Of a stretch of DNA of 64,000 nucleotides, positions 11,201-64,000 are shown in pieces. Source of the DNA: Strigops habroptila (lineage: Eukaryota > Chordata > Aves > Psittaciformes > Psittacidae); assembly GCF_004027225.2 (NCBI RefSeq), contig NC_044282.2, forward strand, positions 69,985,787-70,049,786. Reading direction: 5' to 3'. The translations under genes and the position numbers were made by a program. Below the pieces are notes generated by a model, which had not been told where the DNA came from, did not search any database, and saw only the letters and a program-made list of their open reading frames with translations. The stretch's first letter is position 1; each line of letters begins with the position of its first letter.

Positions 11201-13650
11201 CAAAGGAAATGCAGCAGACAGAATGAATCTAAGCAAATCCTTAGAAAAACAAGAAGAATACACATAATGTGTGAACCACCAGGAAAGTCACTGAACTGTC
11301 ACAGATGAAAAAAGACCAAATATTAAGACATCAAAAAATGATGAAAAACTCCCTTCAACTGTACAAGGAAAAAAAAGCCAGCCAGACCAAAATACTTTGC
11401 TGTGGTGAAAAAACAAAACCAAAAAAGCACAAGAAACACAGCTCTATTACAATAGCTACTATTTGGTAACAAGACTCAGTTTCATGGAATACTACATCTG
11501 TTGCAAGCCTCTAAAGGAAACTGTAGAAAAGGAAATATGAAGAGAAGCAAATAAGGCAGAAAAACTCCTTTCAGAAACTATATGTATTTATATATTAAAA
11601 AAAGAATCTTGACATGGTATTTGTAGTATTTCAACATCTAAATTTTTGCTAGAAAGCCTGTACAAGAAAACATGGTCTGCAATTAAACAGATAGGTTCCC
11701 TGTAGCTAGAGCGAGATGTGCTTCATAAATAATGTGGTACAATATCTTTCTTTCCCAAATTTGACATGAAGGGGAATGGTAGACACTCAGAAGCAGCCAG
11801 GAAACATGGCCTCCCAGTGAGTGAGCTAAAGTGTTCTCTGCCAGCTGATGAATGGCATCTTACCTTAGCAAAGAAGCAGCTTCCTGTGGCGAGGGAATTT
11901 GGAACACAGTGGGAATGAGGAACTGAAAACTCCTGCTGCTACTAACAAAACAGCTGCAAACTATTCACACGCTGCCCATCTTTGCGTGCCTTTGCCATGT
12001 GTGGGGTGAAGTGGGCACCTGAAAAAGGCAGAAACAAGAACACAAATATCAATTAAGGAACTCTCTAAAATAATATTAACTATTCTTGTAGTTCAAAATT
12101 AGCTATCACGATATAAAAGAGAATTTTCAGAACTTTCCAGTCCTTAGGTATCGGAGTCAAACACTGTCCAGCCCAGACCCAGCACTCCTCAGGTTCTGAC
12201 AGCTGATCTGAAGCTTGGGATGAGCAGTGTAATACTCAGCTACTCACATAGTAAAGTATTTCTAGTTTGAAAAGACATACCAAAGTCTTCACATTCTGCA
12301 GTTTCAGGATTTTTAGGCCCACTGGTGCCAATTCTTCCACTCAACCTTTGGAAACTATTCTTCCAATGAGTTAGCACATTTCTAGCTCATTGTTATCTAC
12401 ACTCCTTCATTCATGAACTGCCAATTCAACTTTCAAGTTCAACAATCCACTTTTAAAAACGTTACCCATTCACCACACAACTGCATAGAACTAGAGGAAT
12501 GAGAGATTCTGAGGAACACCAGAGTGCTTGTTACAGGCTACTATGTTTTTGCATTGCCGAATGCTATTTTTATCCCCTTTTTTTAAGTTTTGTGGAACAG
12601 CACATTGAACACTGCATTCAGCCGTTCCACAAAAATTTTAAAAAATGTTATATTCCTTTTTGTATGGAGATCAGGTATTAAGAACTTGTGACTACAGTGC
12701 TAAACTTTGCAACTACACACAAAATTAAAAACAAACCCATCCATTAACACATGGATATAAGACAAGATATTCTTGACAGTGATTGCAGGAATAAGGGGGG
12801 TTGGGGAGAAGAGTGAATACAGCAAAGGTGCAGAACAGGACAGCTGAAGGAAAAATTGAGGTCAGGTAACAGTTTTCATGAACAAGTTTTGGTCAGGGCA
12901 ACACTGTCAGCCTGCAGGAAGGCTCAGACAGGTATGCGCAGAAATAAAGCAGAGCAATTGCAACGGGACTTGAGGAAGAAAAAGAAGACTGATATACACA
13001 TAGGGTTGGAAAGGACCTTAAAGCTGATCCAGTTCTAACCCCCTGCCATGGGCAGGGACACCTTCCACTAGAGCAGGCTGCTCCAAGCCCCATCCAACCT
13101 GGCCTTGAACACTGCCAGGGATGGAGCATTTACCGCTTCTTTGGGCAACCTGTTCCAGTGCCTCACCACCCTCACAGTAAAGAACTTCCTCCTTATAGCT
13201 GACCTAAATCTCCTCTGTTTAAATTTAAACCCATCACCCCTTGTCCTATCGCTACAGTCCCTGATGAAGAGTCCCTCCCCAGCATCCTTGTAGGTCCCCT
13301 TCAGATACTGGGAGCTGCTCTAAAGTCCTCACGCAGCTTCTCTTCTCCATCCTGTCTTCTTATAGCAGGTACTCTTACCATGTTCCAACCCTGACCATTC
13401 TATGACTGTATGAGTTTTACGCCTGGTCAGACCTTTAGAGGCTCGCTCCTCACCAAGCCGGGAGGGGGTGCTGGCGGGAGGGGCGGCGCCTCAGGAACCA
13501 CCTCAAGGAACCGCCGCAGCTCCCCCAGACCGTACCCTCACACATTCATCCGGGGAGGAAAGCGAGACTGAACACCGAGGCGCGGCCACTGCCCCCAGAG
13601 CCCCCCGGCTGAGGGTCCCCGCAAGGCTGCCGCCGTAGTCGCGCCATACC
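8241..13650 (-). CDS. SLX4IP: SLX4IP, 5' part only (gene span seen in this window, partial)
   Basis: SLX4IP binds the SLX4 structure-specific nuclease scaffold and takes part in telomere maintenance. Only the gene's 5' end is here. The coding start is in the exon at 8241-8289, whose nine codons read MASNKFVIK and agree with the SLX4IP amino terminus as I recall it (MASKKF-V-K). A probable untranslated first exon ends at 13650 in the CpG island, giving a first intron of about 5.4 kb. The identification rests on nine residues plus position: the gene sits head to head with MKKS, as in other vertebrates. Later exons lie left of position 1 or were not recognised; I searched 1-8240 on the minus strand by eye without finding the next coding exon. 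Short exons could have been missed. Confidence 0.8.
8453..8480. repeat. Perfect 11-bp inverted repeat (hairpin)
   Basis: TTTAGCTACCA is followed by a six-base spacer CAGAAA and then TGGTAGCTAAA. It lies about 165 bases upstream of the SLX4IP start-codon exon on the sense strand. Confidence 0.85.
10962..11133 (+). mobile_element. CR1 LINE 3' end fragment
   Basis: The order GCCCAGGGAGGTTGTGGATG, GGTGTTCAAGGCCAGGCTGG, GGAACTAGATGATCTTAAGG and a terminal ATTCTATG repeat is diagnostic of the CR1 3' end. It is 5'-truncated and inserted in SLX4IP intron 1 in the orientation opposite to that gene. Confidence 0.95.
11864..12018 (-). other. Candidate alternative or cryptic 5' UTR exon within SLX4IP intron 1
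   Basis: On the minus strand, a strong acceptor (TCTGCCTTTTTCAG) immediately precedes 12018 and a near-consensus donor (CTAAG|GTAAGA) follows 11864, framing a 155-base exon-sized block. Its only notable reading frame is a short one starting ACATGG and stopping after 18 codons, so if used it would be a leader exon with an upstream ORF. The call rests on splice-site quality alone. Confidence 0.3.
13001..13372 (-). mobile_element. CR1 LINE 3' fragment (longer copy)
   Basis: Read on the minus strand it shows the end of the CR1 reverse-transcriptase ORF region and the 3' UTR. The 3' terminus is at the 13001 side (TAGGGTTGGAAAGGACCTTA). The copy lies directly beside the CpG island. Confidence 0.9.
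13378..13411 (+). mobile_element. Very short CR1 3' terminus, opposite orientation
   Basis: TGTTCCAACCCTGACCATTC followed by an ATGACTGTATGA tail resembles the last bases of CR1 in plus orientation. It abuts the minus-strand copy at 13001-13372. With only about 34 bases the assignment is moderate. Confidence 0.6.
13460..13483 (+). other. Potential G-quadruplex in CpG island
   Basis: Four runs of at least three G (13460-13462, 13464-13468, 13476-13478, 13480-13483) have loops of 1, 7 and 1 bases. This fits the standard quadruplex pattern on the plus strand, at the SLX4IP side of the island. Confidence 0.5.
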
Positions 13651-13790
13651 TCCTCCAACGGTTTCTAACGGCTCCGCTGCCCTCACGCACGACCCCATCC
13701 AAAATGGCCGCCGGCTGTAGCCGCCGCCCGCCCTACTCTGCCCGAACGCAAAATGGCCGCCGGCGCAACCGCACACGGGCTGCTGATGTC
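13651..13790 (-). other. SLX4IP: Probable SLX4IP untranslated exon 1 (5' boundary uncertain)
   Basis: On the minus strand the CpG island offers a good splice donor, GGAG|GTATGG, with the last exon base at 13650. Transcription from the shared promoter would give a short GC-rich leader exon running right from there. The transcription start is not visible; 13790 is a rough guess placed after the two AAAATGGC motifs. RNA evidence would be needed to fix the limits. Confidence 0.5.
13701..13764 (+). promoter_or_regulatory. Pair of YY1-like AAAATGGC motifs
   Basis: The 15-base string AAAATGGCCGCCGGC occurs at 13701-13715 and again at 13750-13764. It resembles the YY1 consensus AANATGGCGGC with one change. 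YY1 sites commonly sit at or just after transcription starts, so these may mark the SLX4IP start region. Confidence 0.5.
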
Positions 13791-13879
13791 TCCCCGGGAG
13801 AGAGCGGGCACGTAACGCCGGGCTCGGCCAATGGCGGGCGATGAGCCGCGCTTCCGGGCCGCGCCGCTTCCTGCCATTG

Positions 13880-13975
13880 GGGGGCTTGAACCTGCAGCCC
13901 CTGGGCCCGTCCCGCTGAGGAGCCGGCGGCCGGGCAGCCGCGTCGTCCCCTCGCTTCCCCGGGGCCAGAGCCGAG
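13880..13975 (+). other. MKKS: Probable MKKS untranslated exon 1 (5' limit uncertain)
   Basis: The donor CCGAG|GTGAGC sets the 3' limit at 13975. The transcription start is not visible and is placed roughly after the CCAAT/ETS cluster. Splicing would join it to the uMKKS1 exon at 15078, removing an intron of about 1.1 kb. Confidence 0.5.
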
Positions 13976-14432
13976 GTGAGCGCCGGGAGGGCGGCTGGGC
14001 AGCCCCTTCCTCACCCGCAGCGACTTGCTGCGTGAGGGTGCGCCGCTCCCTTCGCTCACCCCGGACCGCCTCAGCCGTCCGCGCTGCAAGGTCGTTGTGA
14101 CACGGGACGCGGGGGACTGTCGGCTGGGGACTGGGGGGTCTCTGCTGCCCGCCCACCGGCCGCCACGGGACGGGCTGCTTGGGCCGGGCCGCAGCGTCTC
14201 CTCAGCAGCCGGAGCGCGGCTGCCTCACGCGTACCGGCCGCCTCCGTGGCTCTGGAGTCTCCTTTGCCTTGTGTGACAAGTGGTGTCGAGCTGTGAAATC
14301 CCCACGGCATGGTGGAGGGGTAGGACATGGTAATCCTGCGGGTGGATGGGGTTGGGGCGCTGCAGGAACATTTACTCTCTGTAGCTTATTTAAAGACATT
14401 ATTTTGGTATAAAACCTCAGTATACATACCTT

Positions 14433-14453
14433 CCCCCCCCCCCCCCCCCCCCC
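14433..14453 (+). repeat. Run of 21 C
   Basis: An uninterrupted C homopolymer is followed by ATTTTAG, so it looks like an acceptor's pyrimidine tract. It lies in the first MKKS intron. Its length is likely variable between individuals and prone to sequencing error. Confidence 0.9.
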
Positions 14454-14744
14454 ATTTTAGGTATTAATGAAATCCTGTGGGAAATAGAGGTTTATATATC
14501 CTTTTTACATAAGGATTGATTTATTGTGTTTGTACTGATACTGTTGTCACCTCTGAAGACCAGGAGTTAAGGTAGTCAGCGTAACTGCTACTCTAGGCAA
14601 TGTAAAGTGATGTAAGAAGCACTGCATCTTTGGCCTGCAGGTTAACAGTCCCATATTCTGTTAGGAACTCAGTTAGTCAGTGAATTTTACTAGCTATGGG
14701 AGGGAAAAATAGTGTCTTTTGAAACTGCTTTGGTTTAGACTTCA

Positions 14745-14818
14745 AATATTTACTATCCGAGGCAGTAACATTTGTAATTAGAATATTTACTATCTGAAGC
14801 GGTGATATTTGTAATTAG
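14745..14818 (+). repeat. 37-bp tandem duplication
   Basis: Two adjacent 37-base units (14745-14781 and 14782-14818) differ at five positions, and every difference is a transition. It lies in the first MKKS intron. Confidence 0.9.
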
Positions 14819-15081
14819 ATAAAGCTTTGTTACATTTAAGATTTAGCATGCCAAAGCTTGAAGCAAATGCAACAATTAACATTTCAAGATGTTAATTTTA
14901 TAGCTTTTTTTACTTTTTGAAGTTCGCAAAGTAGGACTTTCTTGCCTCATTTTGTGTTTTAATCATCTGCTGCACTGTAATTAAAGATACTAAGATTCAG
15001 GTCCATCTGTGCTGTTATTATAGAGTAAAAGAAGGATTTCTAGAATATGTTTAAAATAATAAATTATCTTTACCTAGGTAG

Positions 15082-15105
15082 ATGCCAGTTTGCAATGGGT
15101 CTTAA
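15082..15105 (+). CDS. Seven-codon upstream ORF overlapping the uMKKS1 start
   Basis: This frame starts four bases into the leader exon and reads MPVCNGS before stopping at 15103-15105, nine bases past the uMKKS1 ATG and in a different frame. The start context is weak (T at -3, C at +4), so most scanning ribosomes should pass it to the stronger uMKKS1 ATG. If used, it would reduce uMKKS1 synthesis. A short extra upstream frame, called uMKKS0, has I believe been noted in mammals; equivalence is not established here. Confidence 0.5.
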   Translation: MPVCNGS

Positions 15106-15286
15106 AACCATCTGGAAGGACTACAAAGTTCTGATTGTTATGGGAACTGGCCTTGTGCTGGTGCACTGGGGCTGGTTTCATATCAAGTCCAGCCCTCTTT
15201 TCCAAGTGAAGACAGAGGAAATTGTTCCAGAACCTGGGATTGTGGCATACGTGTTGCAAAGTGAGCGCAAAAATAAAGAAAAATAG
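15095..15286 (+). CDS. MKKS: uMKKS1 microprotein, 63 aa (upstream ORF of MKKS)
   Basis: This is a 63-residue protein encoded in the MKKS leader. The mammalian uMKKS1 has the same length and was reported as mitochondrial-membrane located; translation of the upstream frames lowers MKKS output. Here the ATG has a strong context (G at -3, G at +4). Residues 1-10 are basic with two aromatics (MGLKTIWKDY). Residues 11-30 form one hydrophobic segment (VLIVMGTGLVLVHWGWF). Residues 31-63 are soluble, with VPEPGIVAYVLQ in the middle and a basic KNKEK tail. There is no cleavable signal. An in-frame ATG further upstream (15047) lies in the intron before the acceptor at 15077, so it is not used in the spliced mRNA. 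The reading frame is clean and ends in the same exon. The function beyond localisation is unknown. Confidence 0.88.
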   Translation: MGLKTIWKDYKVLIVMGTGLVLVHWGWFHIKSSPLFQVKTEEIVPEPGIVAYVLQSERKNKEK

Positions 15287-16137
15287 CATTAGAGCTATGT
15301 ACTGTGGGTAAGTTGCCTAATTAGTTGTATCTATGTCTTTGAGGCAGGAAATGAGTCCATTAAATGCGACTTTTCTAACAGATAGTGTTGCTGCTCCAAC
15401 TTTAGTCTTCCAGAATTTTATTCTTTTTTAGCAGCTGAGTTCATCTAGTAGTTGCATCGACCCAAAAAATGTATCATAACTGTCAAAAACTACTGTTATG
15501 TGATCCATGTGATAGGATCAATTAAGTGATGGTATTATCAGTCTTAAAGATGATTAAAACCAAACTCTTTACTTCCAGGCAACAGCATCCTTTCAGGTTC
15601 AAAACTGCCCAGAAATAACTGTGACATGGTAACATATTCCGTGTTGTTAGTAGGGATGGTAATTACAGTAGAAAACAAAAGGAAGTGTGAAGCCTGAATA
15701 CTGTAGAGATTACATAGAAATGTAAATGAATATCCCTTTAAGTTTTGAAGTGTTTAAGATCTGGAAAAAAAATATTGTTTGTTATGCATCTTGAAGTGAG
15801 AAATCTTTCTTTCAGAGGCAGGAGTTTCAAGTTGTTTGAACATGAAAAGCTTTTGTTTCTGAAGTGGTTGCCTGCGAAGCAGTGCTTAGTAGCTTAGTTC
15901 TTTTGTTCTTGAGTATAACCAGGTTAACATCACTATACCTTTGATACTTTCATACAATTCAGTGTGGTTTATAGTGGCCTGTTACTTGTAGACCTACATG
16001 TAAAACAGTATATAAACTGGTGGTCAGTATTGAAGTCATTAAGACATGTATAGTTTGTGTACTGTGTGCTTGAAGTATATATCATACAGCTTTTCTCAAT
16101 TAAAAAGCATTATATCATATATAGGTAATTGTATGAG

Positions 16138-16905
16138 GTTCAAAGCTCAGAGCTGTGTCTTGCACTTAGGTTACAACTCCTCCATGCAATGCTACAGGTT
16201 TGGGGAAGAGTGGCAGGAAAGCTGCCTGGTGAAAAAGGACCTGGGGGTGTTGGTCGATAGCTGGCTGAGTATGGCCAGCAGTTTGCCCAGGCAGCCAAGA
16301 AGCCACCAGCATCCTAGCCTGTATCAGCAATAGTGTGGCAGCAGGGCCAGGGCAGTGATCATCCCCCTGCACTGGGCACTGGTGAGGCTGCACCTCGAAT
16401 CCTGTGTTCAGTTCTGGGACCCTCACTGTGAGAGAGACGTTGAAGTGTTGGAGTGGGTCCAGAGAAGGGCAACGGAGCTGGTAAAGGGTCCAGACACAAG
16501 TCTTACGAGGAGCAGCTGAGGGAAGTGGGGTGGTTTAGGCTGGAAAAAAAGACAGTTTAGGGGAGGCCTCCTCAGTCTCTTCAGCTACCTGAAAGGGGGC
16601 TGCAGCAAGGTGGGGGTTGGTCTCTTCTCCTAAGTAATAAGTGATAGGACAAGAGGAAATGGCCTCAAGCTGCGCCAGGGGAGGTTTATGTTGGATATTA
16701 GGAAAAACGTCTTCACAGAGAGAGTAATCAGGCATTGGGACAGGCTGCCCAGGGCAGTGGTGGAGTCACTGTCCCTGGAGGTATTTAGAAGATGTGTAGA
16801 TGTGGTCTTGGGAACATGGTTTAGTGGTGGACTTGGCAGTGCTGGGTTAATGGTTGGACTTGATGATCTTAAAGGTTTTTTCCAACCTAAATGATTCTGT
16901 CATTG
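16138..16905 (+). mobile_element. CR1 LINE, 3' portion with decayed ORF2 C-terminus
   Basis: This is the longest CR1 copy in the window. It translates in pieces to the CR1 ORF2 carboxyl end (for example [19 protein letters not shown]) broken by stops and frameshifts. It is followed by the typical 3' UTR with TGGACTTGATGATCTTAAAG and TCCAACCTAAATGATTCTG. It lies between the two MKKS leader exons, in gene orientation, ending about 97 bases before the uMKKS2 exon. Confidence 0.95.
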
Positions 16906-17051
16906 TCCTTATGTGAGCTTTTTTGTGAAATGCAAAATAACATTTCAAGCTATGCAATACTGTCATAAGATTATCCTAATACCTTTTTGTGTTTTATTGT
17001 AGGTATAACTAGCTCTTGAAGCTTTTCATCTGTGTTTTGCCAGAAGAAAAG

Positions 17052-17201
17052 ATGAGGAAAGCTAACTGGAATAGAAAGAACTTTTTGCTTGTGGTGGGAC
17101 TGTCGGTTATAGGTGTCCATTTTGGAAGCATGCTCGTAAACTTTGTTGCAAAAAAATCTGCTCATTCACATTCAGAAACTAAAAAAGATCGTCATGAATG
17201 A
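17052..17201 (+). CDS. MKKS: uMKKS2 microprotein, 49 aa (second upstream ORF of MKKS)
   Basis: This 49-residue frame corresponds to mammalian uMKKS2 (about 50 residues), reported as a mitochondrial-membrane protein. The start context is good (A at -3). The layout is a short basic head (MRKANWNRKN), a hydrophobic segment at residues 11-32 (FLLVVGLSVIGVHFGSMLV) and a polar tail rich in His, Lys and Ser. This basic/hydrophobic/polar plan suits a small single-pass inner-membrane protein. Its membrane segment aligns with that of uMKKS1, sharing L, V, G and V-H-x-G at the same spacing. It ends 245 bases before the MKKS start codon. The biochemical role is unknown. Confidence 0.88.
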   Translation: MRKANWNRKNFLLVVGLSVIGVHFGSMLVNFVAKKSAHSHSETKKDRHE

Positions 17202-17426
17202 AATAGTTTGCTGCTTTCATTGTGTCAATTTCACAATAGGATTTTAAACCTCATTTTAAGAGCTAGAGCATGAGCAGTCACAAGGAATGTTGTTATTGTA
17301 CTGTATGCACTGTCTCACCGTTAATATGATCCTTAGTTGCAAAGAATTCAAATGTTCTACTTTAAATTTTAAAAGTGCTATGAATTATAGATCCAAGTAA
17401 AAATGAAATCTGTTTTGTTGGCCAGA

Positions 17427-17432
17427 ATTAAA
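17427..17432 (+). promoter_or_regulatory. Possible poly(A) signal ATTAAA before the MKKS start codon
   Basis: ATTAAA ends 14 bases before the MKKS ATG. Mammalian MKKS is reported to make short transcripts carrying only the upstream frames by alternative polyadenylation; this site could serve the same end. The downstream GU-rich element is weak, so the call is tentative. Confidence 0.35.
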
Positions 17433-17446
17433 ACCTCACTTTGAAA

Positions 17447-18437
17447 ATGTCTCGTCTTGAAGCTAAAAAGCCTCCGTTATTTATTACTGAACCTTTAACT
17501 AAAGATGGAGTTAGTCAGTCACTGTCTCTGCTGAGTGGAATACTAAAATCTTGCTATGGTCCTGCTGGTCGGCTCAAACAGCTCCACAATGGTGTGGGAG
17601 GCTATGTTTGTACAACTTCACAATCTTCAGCTATACTCAGTCGTCTTCCTGTCAGTCATCCTGTGTTAGGTGTTTTGATGGCCTCTGTACAGAACCATGT
17701 ATCCCGCTTCAGTGACTGCGGTTTATTTACTGCCATTCTCTGTTGTAGTTTGATTGAAAACTTTAAAAGCCTAAACATTGCGTCTTGCACTGTCATTAAA
17801 ATAAGCAAGCATCTTTTGAGTTTCTGTATGGACTACCTCAAATCTGAGGCCTGTGGTTGCAGAGTGGCTGTGGATTTTAGCAGTGTCGAGACTCTTCTTT
17901 GTTTGGTACGTAGCATATTAAGAAGCAAACCTGCTTGCATGCTTAATAAAACAGAGGTTGATCATCTCACCACACTGATTGTAAAGGCTTTTCTATTTAC
18001 TGTTCCATGTCATGCTGAGAGTAATGCTGTTTTAGGAAAGTGTGTAATAGTACCCATGAAAGGTAGAAGAGTTGTGGATTCTACAGTTCTTCCTGGACTA
18101 CTGATAGAAACACCAGAAATTCAATTGGCAAACCCGCTTACTATCAAAAGAACTAGTTCAAACACGATCAAGATAGCACTTTTCTGTGTGTCCATGTCAG
18201 GAGACAGCTTCAACCCTGAAGAAGGAACTATAACTGTCCATCACGGAATTTCTCTAGAAATGTCAGAGCTGAATCAGTTGCTTGACGTAGGAAAGCAGCT
18301 TGTTAATGATGAGGTTGGCCTTGTAGTGTGTCAGAAAGTTATCCATCCATCCTTGAAGCAGTATCTGAAAGAGAACAGTGTCATGGCTGTGGACAGAGCT
18401 GGACTATCTCTGATGGAACCCCTGAGTCGGATGACAG
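17447..18437 (+). CDS. MKKS: MKKS coding exon 1 (residues 1-330 plus one base)
   Basis: This exon encodes the amino-terminal equatorial, intermediate and most of the apical domain. It ends in phase 1 within the glycine codon of RMTG. Reading on into the intron stays open for only 18 more codons, to a TGA ending at 18493. Confidence 0.97.
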
Positions 18438-20809
18438 GTAACAAGCGAGTTTTCTATACTAAGCAATTGTCTGTAACGTTCACGTCACAATGAAAACCTG
18501 TCTAGGTTGGTATCTTTGCAGAGTAAGGATTCTCTTATTTCTGCCTGTATCCTATCTAAGCAGCTGAGCAAAGTTATTCTTTTCTAGTCTGAAAACTTTT
18601 AAGGTGAGATTGGTCTTCTGCAGGCTCTAACGATGAACCACTGCACATGTGATTAGTGATTTCTGCAGGAGGAATATCCAGTTATAGTAACTCTTTGCAA
18701 AAGTAGCTTATTTACAAATTTATTTAATGAGAATAAAACAATTATTTTTATCTTAAACGTTTTGGTTTCTGTATTTGACTTCTTTAGATTGAAATGTTAG
18801 TTATTGAAAAATGCATATAATTTAAAAAGCCAAGAGCATGCTTTATGAAATGAAACAAAAGCTGTTGTGGTAACAGTAGTACGTGTTGTTTCTTTGCTTT
18901 TCTTCATTGGACAGGTTCAAAGCCAATAGCTTCCATACACTTGCTGTCTCCTAGTTGTTATGGCAGTTTGAAAGATGTGGACATTGAGAGTTTCGCTTCC
19001 AAAAACTTTGTGCATCTAATTCCTAATGACACACTTGTTTGCAGCTTGATACTCTGTAACAGAAATGAAACAGCATGGGATGAATTGAAGGTAGGCAAAT
19101 TTTCTTGGAATCTTTCTTGAAAAGTGATGTATTTAATGGAAAAAAAAATGAGAAATACAGATACAGTGAGTTTAGAAAAGTGTTCTTTCAGTACATAAGT
19201 GGAATTTAGTTAGATTTTTAGGTACACAATTTCAAGAAAGCAATTCAGAAACACACGTTTCCAAAACTTCAAAACCCTTCAAGTGTTCATGTTCGTTCAA
19301 TGCCTCTATTTTAATACAGGAAGCTGTTCAGAGACAAACATTTTTCATCTCTTCTTGAGGCCTGTGCAGGATAAACCTTTTCTTTCTCATTACTTGGTCT
19401 ATGAGAGCATAAATTAAAAATTGCCCAGCAAAAGGCCAGCAGCAATACCTGCAGTGGTAGTCAAGCATTAGTTTTGCGTTGAATAGTTGCTCTAGAAGTG
19501 TCACAGAAACTGATTGACTTTTTATATATAACCTTGTTTTGCAAAAGAAGGAGTAAAGTACAGGGGGTTTATTTCTGCTTTTTCATTCTGAACGTGGCCA
19601 AAAAAAGTCAATTTCTCATTAAGTGAACATGGTTTTGGATATAGAGCTTTATATCCACATGTATTTCAAGTTTATGAAGTCTGTACCAGAAGGTACTGAA
19701 ACTTCTATTCCAGTAGTTTTTTCAATGGGGGAAAATCCTATTAATGATGGTATGTCTAATGTCAAATTAACATGTTTTTCAGCGTGCTTGTGAAACTGCA
19801 GAACACGTGTTACAGTTGACACTGAAGGAACCTTTGGCATTATTAGGAGGTGGCTGTACAGAAACTCACCTGGCTTCCTACATAAGACATAAGGTATAAA
19901 AGACACAAGTTTTTTTAAAGCTGCTTAATGTATTTAGGAAACAGGAGTTTATGACTAATCACTACTGCAGTTAAAACACGTGTCTTTTCTAGGTTAATGT
20001 AGCGTTTTTGTTGTCTGGCTAGCAATATAAAACAAGGGGTTCTATTTAAAGCACTCTATTAATTACACTTTTAGACTTGATAATACTGTATTTGTACTTA
20101 ATCTTTGGGTATCTATTATAGTAAGTACTTATTCTAAGTGTTAAAATAAAAATGTGTAGGATTTTTATATTGAAAGATAATTGTGCAGAACCCAGTTTTG
20201 ACTTATTTAGAAATCTTCCCTATTGTGGAATAGTCACATGAAAAGATGTATTAGTTGGGCCTCAACCATCTGTTTAAAAAAGAAAGGCAACAGTAAGATA
20301 CATGTTTGATTAAAATTACTTCTGCAAAACAGTGTTCTGATTTTCTGTTTTCCTGTTTTGTTTTTTAGAGTTGCAGTCTGTCCACCAGCAGTTTTGAAGA
20401 TACAGATTGTTCTCAGGCAGAATACCAATTGGTTGCTGAGGGGTTTTGCCGGTCCCTGGAGTCTGTAGCTCGCTCTCTGAATCACGATGATGGAGAAATT
20501 CTTACAGACATGGTTTATGGACACTGTTGGTTTGTTCCACCAGGTTTTCCCCCTGTCTCTAATTGGTCAGATTTAGTTTCAAAATGTGGCTGTGGGATTA
20601 ATGGTAACAGTGAGAATCTCAAATGGAGGCTTTTGCAGGGCCAGTTTGGCTCTCCTGTTATACACGACTGCCCTAAAGAGCCCCTAGTAAAGATTGCTGA
20701 CTTTCTGACATTGGACTGTTATGCTGCAAAGTGTAGTGGCCTACAAGTAGCTCTGGAGACAGCCCATCTGATTTTGGATCTCTTATATGTCATCAAAGAT
20801 CAAAATTAG
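17447..20809 (+). CDS. MKKS: MKKS / BBS6, chaperonin-like protein (572 aa, four coding exons)
   Basis: MKKS is a vertebrate group II chaperonin-like protein (CCT/TRiC related). With BBS10, BBS12 and CCT subunits it assembles the BBSome for ciliary trafficking, and it concentrates at the centrosome and basal body. Human mutations cause McKusick-Kaufman and Bardet-Biedl syndromes. Exons 17447-18437, 18915-19090, 19783-19893 and 20369-20809 join without frame error to 572 residues (human 570). The amino-terminal equatorial part carries [14 protein letters not shown] (residues 36-49), equivalent to the chaperonin nucleotide-binding loop. The catalytic GDGTT of true chaperonins is replaced by DCGLFTA (90-96), as in mammals, so ATP hydrolysis is not expected. 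GGGCTE (411-416) matches the conserved equatorial GGGxxE. The ATG at 17447 (A at -3) begins MSRLEAKKP like the human protein. Confidence 0.98.
18438..18914 (+). other. MKKS: MKKS intron with candidate intronic poly(A) signal
   Basis: An AATAAA at 18732-18737, preceded by an in-frame read-through stop at 18491-18493 and followed by GTTTTGGTTTCTG, could yield a truncated MKKS of 348 residues. Otherwise this is ordinary intron. Confidence 0.3.
18915..19090 (+). CDS. MKKS: MKKS coding exon 2 (residues 331-389)
   Basis: The acceptor TTCATTGGACAG precedes 18915 and the donor GAAG|GTAGGC follows 19090. It encodes [17 protein letters not shown] through [12 protein letters not shown], closely similar to the human protein, and is 176 bases long. 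Confidence 0.97.
19783..19893 (+). CDS. MKKS: MKKS coding exon 3 (residues 390-426)
   Basis: The acceptor GTTTTTCAG precedes 19783 and the donor ATAAG|GTATAA follows 19893. Its 37 codons include [19 protein letters not shown], the conserved equatorial glycine motif of chaperonins. Confidence 0.97.
20369..20809 (+). CDS. MKKS: MKKS last coding exon (residues 427-572 and stop)
   Basis: The acceptor TGTTTTTTAG precedes 20369. It encodes the carboxyl-terminal equatorial half, with [14 protein letters not shown] and the ending [13 protein letters not shown]-stop, like the human ending LILDLSYVIEDKN. Confidence 0.97.
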   Translation, partial: SCSLSTSSFEDTDCSQAEYQLVAEGFCRSLESVARSLNHDDGEILTDMVYGHCWFVPPGFPPVSNWSDLVSKCGCGINGNSENLKWRLLQGQFGSPVIHDCPKEPLVKIADFLTLDCYAAKCSGLQVALETAHLILDLLYVIKDQN

Positions 20810-22100
20810 CTCTGATCTTATGTGATTTGTATTGCACAGCAAGATACTTAATTGAAAGCAGGGTAATATATGATGTGTTAAGATACTTTAAATGGTTAGA
20901 ATGGGCAATAGACAGAAAATGTAAATCAGTTGGCCATTAAGTACTTGTCTGATTGCTCATCTACCATGCTCAAGCATTTTCAAGTGTTAAACACTTTGTT
21001 AGGAACTGTTACATGATTATCCAAATATACAATGAATCATAGTAACATATGACTTACAAGCATTCAAATTAGCATGTCCAGAAGAGTGAATGACACTTTG
21101 ATATTCCTTCTGCATTAAGCAAAGTTTTGGATATTTGTGAGATCTGTGGTATCTTCAAAGGAATGAGCAAAATGGATTCACTTGCTGAGAAAACATGTTA
21201 AGGAATAGAATTTATGTAGTCTCAGCAAAAGCTTTACTCATTCCGACTTGTATTGCAGCAGAACTTTATCACTGGTGTGTTTAATTTTGTAGGTAAAAGA
21301 GAAGGCTTTCCTTGGCAAATATCTTGAGCCACTTGTTTTCAAATTTTCTGAAAGTCCTTGTCACCCTACATTATATGCCGTTTCTGTTTTGAAATGGCTG
21401 AGACATTTAAATTAATATATCTAATTTATTTAGCAAGTTATAAAAGCTCAACCTGGAGATCTTAAGGTAGCAGGTAGGTAATAGAAGATTTGAAAAGAAA
21501 TGACAGACTGTGTGGAAAAAACTTGTGAAGTGGACCTTGATTGTCTTCTGTGGACTACAGGGCAGTCTATAAATAATGATGTTTCTATCATTTAAGCAGA
21601 GCTGCAAGAATGTCCCACTTAGCATTCAGTTAACTCTTTGACTGTGCATAGCTTCTTTTCTTTTAATGAAGTAAGGCTTTAAGCTGCTCAGGCTTGTTTT
21701 GATCTTTAAATAAGGCTGTAGAGTGAATGATCAAAACTTTTTCTCATTCTTGGCTTGCATGCGAGATCAAAAGGGGTGTTACAGTTTCTTGCTTAAACTC
21801 ATTTTCTTTGCCCCTTTTCTTCTTCCCCTTTGTTTTTTGTCACAAGGGACAAATTGCTGATGACATGCTATTCCAGAAAACATCTGAGTTAGTTATAGAC
21901 TAGTTTGCTTATTTGTTTCCTGGTCTTGTAAGTTTTTAATATATTTACCGAGTATAAGCAGTAGAATTGTTTTGTGTAACTCAGTTTTGAAATATGTAAT
22001 TAAAAGCAGATCTTTCCAGACCTTTTGTGCAAAGTCTTTTTCATTTCAAGAGCATAAATAATAATTTTCTCACTAGAGAAAATGAAAAGTTATTAAAAGT
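20810..22100 (+). other. MKKS: Probable MKKS 3' UTR region (end uncertain)
   Basis: No AATAAA is seen soon after the stop. ATTAAA variants occur at 21999-22004, followed by a U-rich stretch near 22027, and at 22092-22097. Either could end the transcript, but this cannot be settled without RNA data. Confidence 0.35.

Positions 22101-54081: not shown

Positions 54082-64000
<9,919 letters not shown>

Follow-up and report, generated by a model that had tools for sequence, protein, structure and literature searches.

Two small proteins encoded in the leader of the human MKKS mRNA, uMKKS1 and uMKKS2, were reportedly described by Akimoto et al. in 2013, a study known to us through the papers that cite it. 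Here, we compare that arrangement with the MKKS locus of a bird, Strigops habroptila, using a stretch of 64,000 nucleotides (C6:69985787-70049786 of a 1.15-Gb genome). This stretch is called the window below, and positions are counted from its first letter. The bird locus has two short open frames ahead of a 572-codon MKKS frame, and these are probably the counterparts of the two human ones.

The 2013 human report is cited in reviews (PMC4705651, PMC9776223, PMC12573267), and the human leader products are given elsewhere as uMKKS0, uMKKS1 and uMKKS2, of 43, 63 and 50 amino acids (PMC9985340). uMKKS1 and uMKKS2 have been used as positive controls for mitochondrial microproteins (PMC7066179), and the mitochondrial location of human uMKKS was seen again in another study (PMC10908861). 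Both human peptides occur in membrane fractions of mitochondria, and there is a short human transcript that carries the upstream open reading frames (uORFs) only (PMC12573267). PhyloCSF points to peptide-level selection on one coding sequence (CDS) in the MKKS leader, and GENCODE lists such CDSs of untranslated regions as distinct genes (PMC6886504). The product of an MKKS uORF has been termed a conserved microprotein (PMC10032668), and MKKS is also named in PMC4568590. Finally, a human reporter assay showed that the MKKS uORF represses in a manner that relies, at least partly, on the sequence it encodes (PMC7530721).

The two leader frames of the bird locus

As in the human gene, two short leader frames lie in the same order ahead of MKKS. 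Frame 1 encodes 63 amino acids, the length of human uMKKS1 (PMC9985340, PMC8448870), and frame 2 encodes 49, against 50 for human uMKKS2 (PMC9985340). Whereas the human leader has a third product, uMKKS0 (43 amino acids, PMC9985340), the simplest model of the bird leader has only a weak-context frame of 7 codons before uMKKS1. The main argument for both frames is their place upstream of MKKS, their order and their near-human lengths, and because these fit uMKKS1 and uMKKS2, in print since 2013, the arrangement is mostly known. We put at about 0.8 the probability that the bird frames are the counterparts of uMKKS1 and uMKKS2, that is, two single-helix microproteins of the mitochondrial membrane, made from the MKKS leader, which stand in front of MKKS and brake it.

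The exon borders were read from splice-like sites in the sequence alone, and all leader exons are predicted. The features of the leader are as follows.

13860-13975, plus strand: probable first leader exon, in a CpG island; donor GCCGAG/GTGAGC at 13975/13976; the start at 13860 is a placeholder
15078-15307, plus strand: predicted leader exon with frame 1; acceptor before 15078, donor CTGTGG/GTAAGT after 15307
15095-15286, plus strand: frame 1, uMKKS1-like, 63 amino acids; strong start context, one helix predicted at residues 3-31
17003-18437, plus strand: in the simplest model, one exon that comprises frame 2, the first coding part of MKKS and, between them, a spacer of 245 bases
17052-17201, plus strand: frame 2, uMKKS2-like, 49 amino acids; adequate start context, one helix predicted at residues 8-47

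A preliminary description of this DNA had placed frames of 63 and 49 codons ahead of the 572-codon MKKS frame, and we confirm them at 15095-15286, 17052-17201 and 17447-20809. Read by eye, its outer limits fall on splice sites, 15078 on the acceptor TTTACCTAG/GTAGATG and 18437 on the donor ACAG/GTAACA. It also spoke of two leader exons, which would need an intron between frame 2 and the MKKS ATG. Since none of the 16 GT dinucleotides in that interval belongs to a GTRAGT donor, frame 2 and the MKKS start are most simply placed in one shared exon, 17003-18437. An acceptor-like site is present 21 bases upstream of the MKKS ATG, at 17425/17426 (TTTTGTTGGCCAG/AATTAAAACC); if it were used, the mRNA would lack uMKKS2 and the AUG-rich spacer.

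Frame 1 opens with the ATG at 15095 in a strong context (G at -3, G at +4) and its stop codon ends at 15286; frame 2 opens with the ATG at 17052 in an adequate context (A at -3, A at +4) and its stop ends at 17201. The good start contexts noted earlier are thus present, although they do not rise above chance among the frames of the window (see below). Each peptide had also been credited with one hydrophobic segment. Single-sequence AlphaFold predicts for frame 1 a main helix at residues 3-31, with tail helices at 34-43 and 47-62, at a mean predicted local distance difference test (pLDDT) of 71.6 in the best model (range over five models, 41.9-71.6; moderate confidence). For frame 2 it predicts a single long helix at residues 8-47 (best-model mean pLDDT 76.4, again moderate confidence). 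One main helix that could form the membrane part is therefore predicted in each, but the hydrophobicity of frame 1 is within chance, and a hydrophobic helix does not by itself identify the organelle. When the best-scoring candidates from the whole genome were considered, each peptide matched only its own locus, frame 1 at E<=0.001 and frame 2 at E<=10.

Reaching MKKS through the leader

How would ribosomes reach MKKS behind these frames? The simplest spliced mRNA, with the placeholder start at 13860, has 15 AUGs before the MKKS AUG, of which two are internal to the microprotein frames and in frame with them, and seven lie downstream of the uMKKS2 frame. The first AUG, at 15082, stands in a weak context and begins a frame of 7 codons; it is followed by that of uMKKS1, in strong context. 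Ribosomes scanning from the cap would meet these two starts in this order, and uMKKS2 would be translated via leaky scanning or reinitiation. Because 15 AUGs precede its own, MKKS would be poorly reached on the full-length mRNA, and would need reinitiation or splicing to the acceptor-like site at 17425/17426.

Two candidate polyadenylation (poly(A)) signals lie in the leader.

15272-15277, plus strand: AATAAA, candidate poly(A) signal; overlaps the last uMKKS1 codons, 36 bases before the splice donor
17427-17432, plus strand: ATTAAA, candidate poly(A) signal; just upstream of the MKKS ATG

By analogy with the human gene, both are candidates for making a short mRNA that carries the uORFs only. 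Such mRNAs, polyadenylated inside the leader, would probably carry the microproteins alone, as in human, so that the locus would behave as a two-microprotein gene in front of MKKS and braking it. The earlier label of a three-protein transcript leaves out this short uORF-only form, which is reported in human (PMC12573267).

Perhaps the frames are translational brakes on MKKS and nothing else, such that translation itself or a stalling nascent chain is what matters and the released peptides are idle. The 15 AUGs just described would suit such a function, as would the finding that a human MKKS uORF represses a downstream reporter, in part through its encoded sequence (PMC7530721). It is difficult, however, to reconcile idle peptides with the detection of the human products in mitochondria (PMC7066179, PMC10908861) or with the PhyloCSF signature (PMC6886504), and a brake has no need of the short human mRNA that carries the uORFs only (PMC12573267). 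We consider this explanation unlikely, though it is the best of the alternatives. The preliminary description had set the two functions against each other, arguing that the peptides themselves are selected and are not just brakes. The published PhyloCSF signature of a CDS within the leader of MKKS (PMC6886504) agrees with the first half of that argument and excludes no brake; the choice is a false one, since repression in human depends partly on the encoded sequence (PMC7530721), so that peptide selection and braking can coexist. Should selection act on the bird frames at the level of the peptide, variants in the MKKS leader of human patients could act via a mitochondrial protein and not via MKKS alone. 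A search for a polymorphism in the human leader yielded nothing of use.

Weighing the frames against chance

Several observations weigh against counterparts of uMKKS1 and uMKKS2 at this locus. As a control set we took the 121 ATG frames of at least 49 amino acids on both strands of the window. At least 63 amino acids are reached by 66 of these 121. The identity of the bird and human uMKKS1 lengths, offered earlier as a sign of selection, is weak evidence. A 19-residue Kyte-Doolittle mean of at least 1.6 is found in 28 of the 121 (frames 1 and 2 included), and 15 of these 28 have a purine at -3. With frames 1, 2 and MKKS left out, 21 of 118 other frames are more hydrophobic than frame 1 (1.67). 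Codon usage, scored after training on the window's own MKKS, was discarded as an uninformative coding signal: among 116 controls (the 121 minus frames 1 and 2, MKKS and the other plus-strand frames at 17432-20809), 35 reached the score of frame 1 and 24 that of frame 2. In length, start context and codon usage, neither frame stands out from the other frames of the window, and nor does frame 1 in hydrophobicity. Neither peptide matches any Pfam family at E<=10 with the HMMER filters on. The leader poly(A) hexamers may also be there by chance, AATAAA occurring at 0.95/kb and ATTAAA at 0.78/kb on the plus strand.

The last point of this kind comes from the human sequence that we compared, a single 17-residue tryptic peptide of uMKKS1 (PMC8448870). 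Its alignment with frame 1 is not significant, the score being reached in 3608 and 4776 of 20000 shuffles under two gap costs. A pattern I..PE..LQ could be lined up by eye with the tail of bird uMKKS1, and was not counted as evidence. We think that this part of the protein may have diverged between birds and mammals, in preference to a wrong assignment of orthology. The match to uMKKS1 and uMKKS2 proposed in the preliminary description is supported by position, order, lengths and single-helix character; the human peptide does not prove orthology at the sequence level.

Two properties rise above chance. The first is the hydrophobicity of frame 2 (2.22), which is reached by only 2 of the 118 other frames. 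The second is the likeness of the two peptides to each other. Both carry the pattern K-x2-W-x9-G-x6-H-[WF]-G, equally spaced in the two; 8 of 23 residues are identical in an ungapped alignment, and MAFFT gives 27% identity. Full shuffles reached the pair score of 43 in 2 of 20000 cases, and block shuffles, in which head, helix and tail were kept apart, in 100 of 20000. None of the 47 hydrophobic ATG frames of the window reached it, nor did any of 412 hydrophobic stop-to-stop frames drawn from the window and from 20 other genomic loci (best scores, 36 and 38). The comparison was chosen after the sequences had been seen, which makes the figures somewhat optimistic. Against kinship, when identical special residues (W, G, H, K and others) were counted at the best offset, 3475 of 20000 block shuffles reached the number found for the pair. 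The likeness suggests that uMKKS1 and uMKKS2 are probably tandem paralogs that arose via exon duplication.

The same results bear on the idea that frame 1 is a real conserved protein and frame 2 a chance open frame in this bird. Frame 2 is short, 121 ATG frames of the window being at least as long, and its codon score is the one matched by 24 of 116 controls. A chance frame, however, would hardly be expected to have a human equivalent of 50 amino acids in the same order (PMC9985340), a hydrophobicity so seldom equalled in the window, and a closer resemblance to frame 1 than any of the 412 hydrophobic controls. We regard this as improbable. Least probable of all is a longer first frame from an ATG at 13831, which would add 54 arginine-rich residues, possibly a targeting sequence, to uMKKS1 (117 amino acids in total) through an exon 1 that is open and in frame with it (13831-13975 plus 15078-15286, with no internal stop): that ATG lies within the CCAAT-box-like GGCCAATGG and so is probably upstream of the transcription start, the extended form being possible only if transcription starts above 13831; moreover, GC-rich DNA is often open by chance, and the human product has 63 amino acids.

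Returning to the frames as counterparts of uMKKS1 and uMKKS2, the observation that was followed up here is correct and describes an arrangement already known, and its interpretation is partly supported. What the bird locus adds is, above all, a proposed kinship of the two peptides, candidate poly(A) signals within the leader and a map of AUGs in which MKKS is poorly served. In the available parts of the uMKKS literature we found no mention of the kinship, although no search was aimed at it by name, and it is new relative to the literature found there.

MKKS and its neighbours

Joining of exons gives an MKKS frame of 1719 nucleotides in four coding exons, intact and with a single terminal stop.

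17447-18437, plus strand: MKKS coding exon 1, with the main-frame ATG at 17447
18915-19090, plus strand: MKKS coding exon 2, from exon joining
19783-19893, plus strand: MKKS coding exon 3, from exon joining
20369-20809, plus strand: MKKS coding exon 4 with the stop, from exon joining; Pfam Cpn60_TCP1 was found on the full product

The 572-residue product matches Cpn60_TCP1 over residues 29-571 (E 1.8e-81), and the frame was named MKKS because of this divergent chaperonin domain and because of the neighbours SLX4IP and SNAP25. SLX4IP (UPF0492) lies upstream on the opposite strand; the first positions of its profile match 69960979-69961095 (minus strand) of C6, a site outside the window that precedes the promoter region of MKKS by about 39 kb. 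An exon of SNAP25 lies downstream, also on the opposite strand, inside an open frame at 58186-58578 (minus strand), so that MKKS and SNAP25 stand tail to tail. This 48-residue piece was identified by a search of solved structures, and a Pfam search with it gave nothing. The order SLX4IP-MKKS-SNAP25 is that of the human genes. The first intron has a run of 21 C at 14433-14453, on the downstream side of the CpG island, and a repeat that resembles an avian CR1 fragment (16100-16900) takes up a large share of the intron that separates the microprotein exons. Rfam, searched at the gathering threshold over 13000-22000, gave no match.

Other microprotein families and bicistronic transcripts

Could the two peptides belong to a described family of small mitochondrial proteins? 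Profile searches found BRAWNIN, SMIM4 and PET117 elsewhere in this bird genome. At E<=10, 10 places were listed for BRAWNIN/UQCC6 (PF14990) and 8 for SMIM4/UQCC5 (PF15114), none of them at the MKKS locus; for PET117 (PF15786) the 4 places listed in the genome were likewise elsewhere, and neither peptide matched its profile. Pairwise comparison of four exon pieces with the two peptides at two gap costs made 16 comparisons. The lowest counts were those of frame 2 with SMIM4 (268 of 5000 block shuffles, loose gap cost) and of frame 1 with BRAWNIN (275 of 5000 with the loose and 345 of 5000 with the standard gap cost), which are not significant because 16 comparisons were made, and membership in the three families is rejected for now. 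The bird BRAWNIN exon (L011 1501-1608, minus strand) starts MPAGVPWPTY...VVH and has W7, Y10 and one VH in common with uMKKS1, which is not significant. Among solved structures nothing qualified as a credible relative for either peptide, the best E values being 0.97, 2.7 and 1.2, and a search of viral contigs for relatives confirmed none.

Vertebrates and flies both have bicistronic mRNAs that encode mitochondrial microproteins (PMC13303939, PMC9681215), and one study gives 14 human bicistronic transcripts (PMC13303939; the word MKKS was not found in the text available). With these and the 2013 report in print, the MKKS leader is not a new arrangement, and the preliminary description overstated the case in calling it unusual for a vertebrate. 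In STREMI-SLC35A4 and other human bicistronic transcripts, a mitochondrial microprotein frame likewise lies upstream of an unrelated main frame and affects its translation (PMC13303939). In STREMI-SLC35A4, however, a single microprotein lies upstream and the main frame is intronless, whereas MKKS has introns.

A close parallel to the pair itself is Drosophila Sloth1/Sloth2 (human SMIM4/UQCC5 and BRAWNIN/UQCC6), which are, as is predicted for the bird pair, two mutually similar single-helix mitochondrial microproteins from one mRNA. Sloth1 and Sloth2 are 27% identical (PMC9681215), the same figure as MAFFT gives for the bird pair, though the denominators may differ. A common family of the two pairs is not supported, since SMIM4 and BRAWNIN of the bird lie elsewhere and the alignments are not significant. 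One tentative possibility, which we hold to be doubtful but likelier than any of the rival explanations above, is that uMKKS1 and uMKKS2 are paralogs from tandem duplication of one small exon and form a matched pair in one complex of the mitochondrial membrane, as Sloth1 and Sloth2 do for complex III, with MKKS a passenger that is read through behind a two-subunit microprotein gene.

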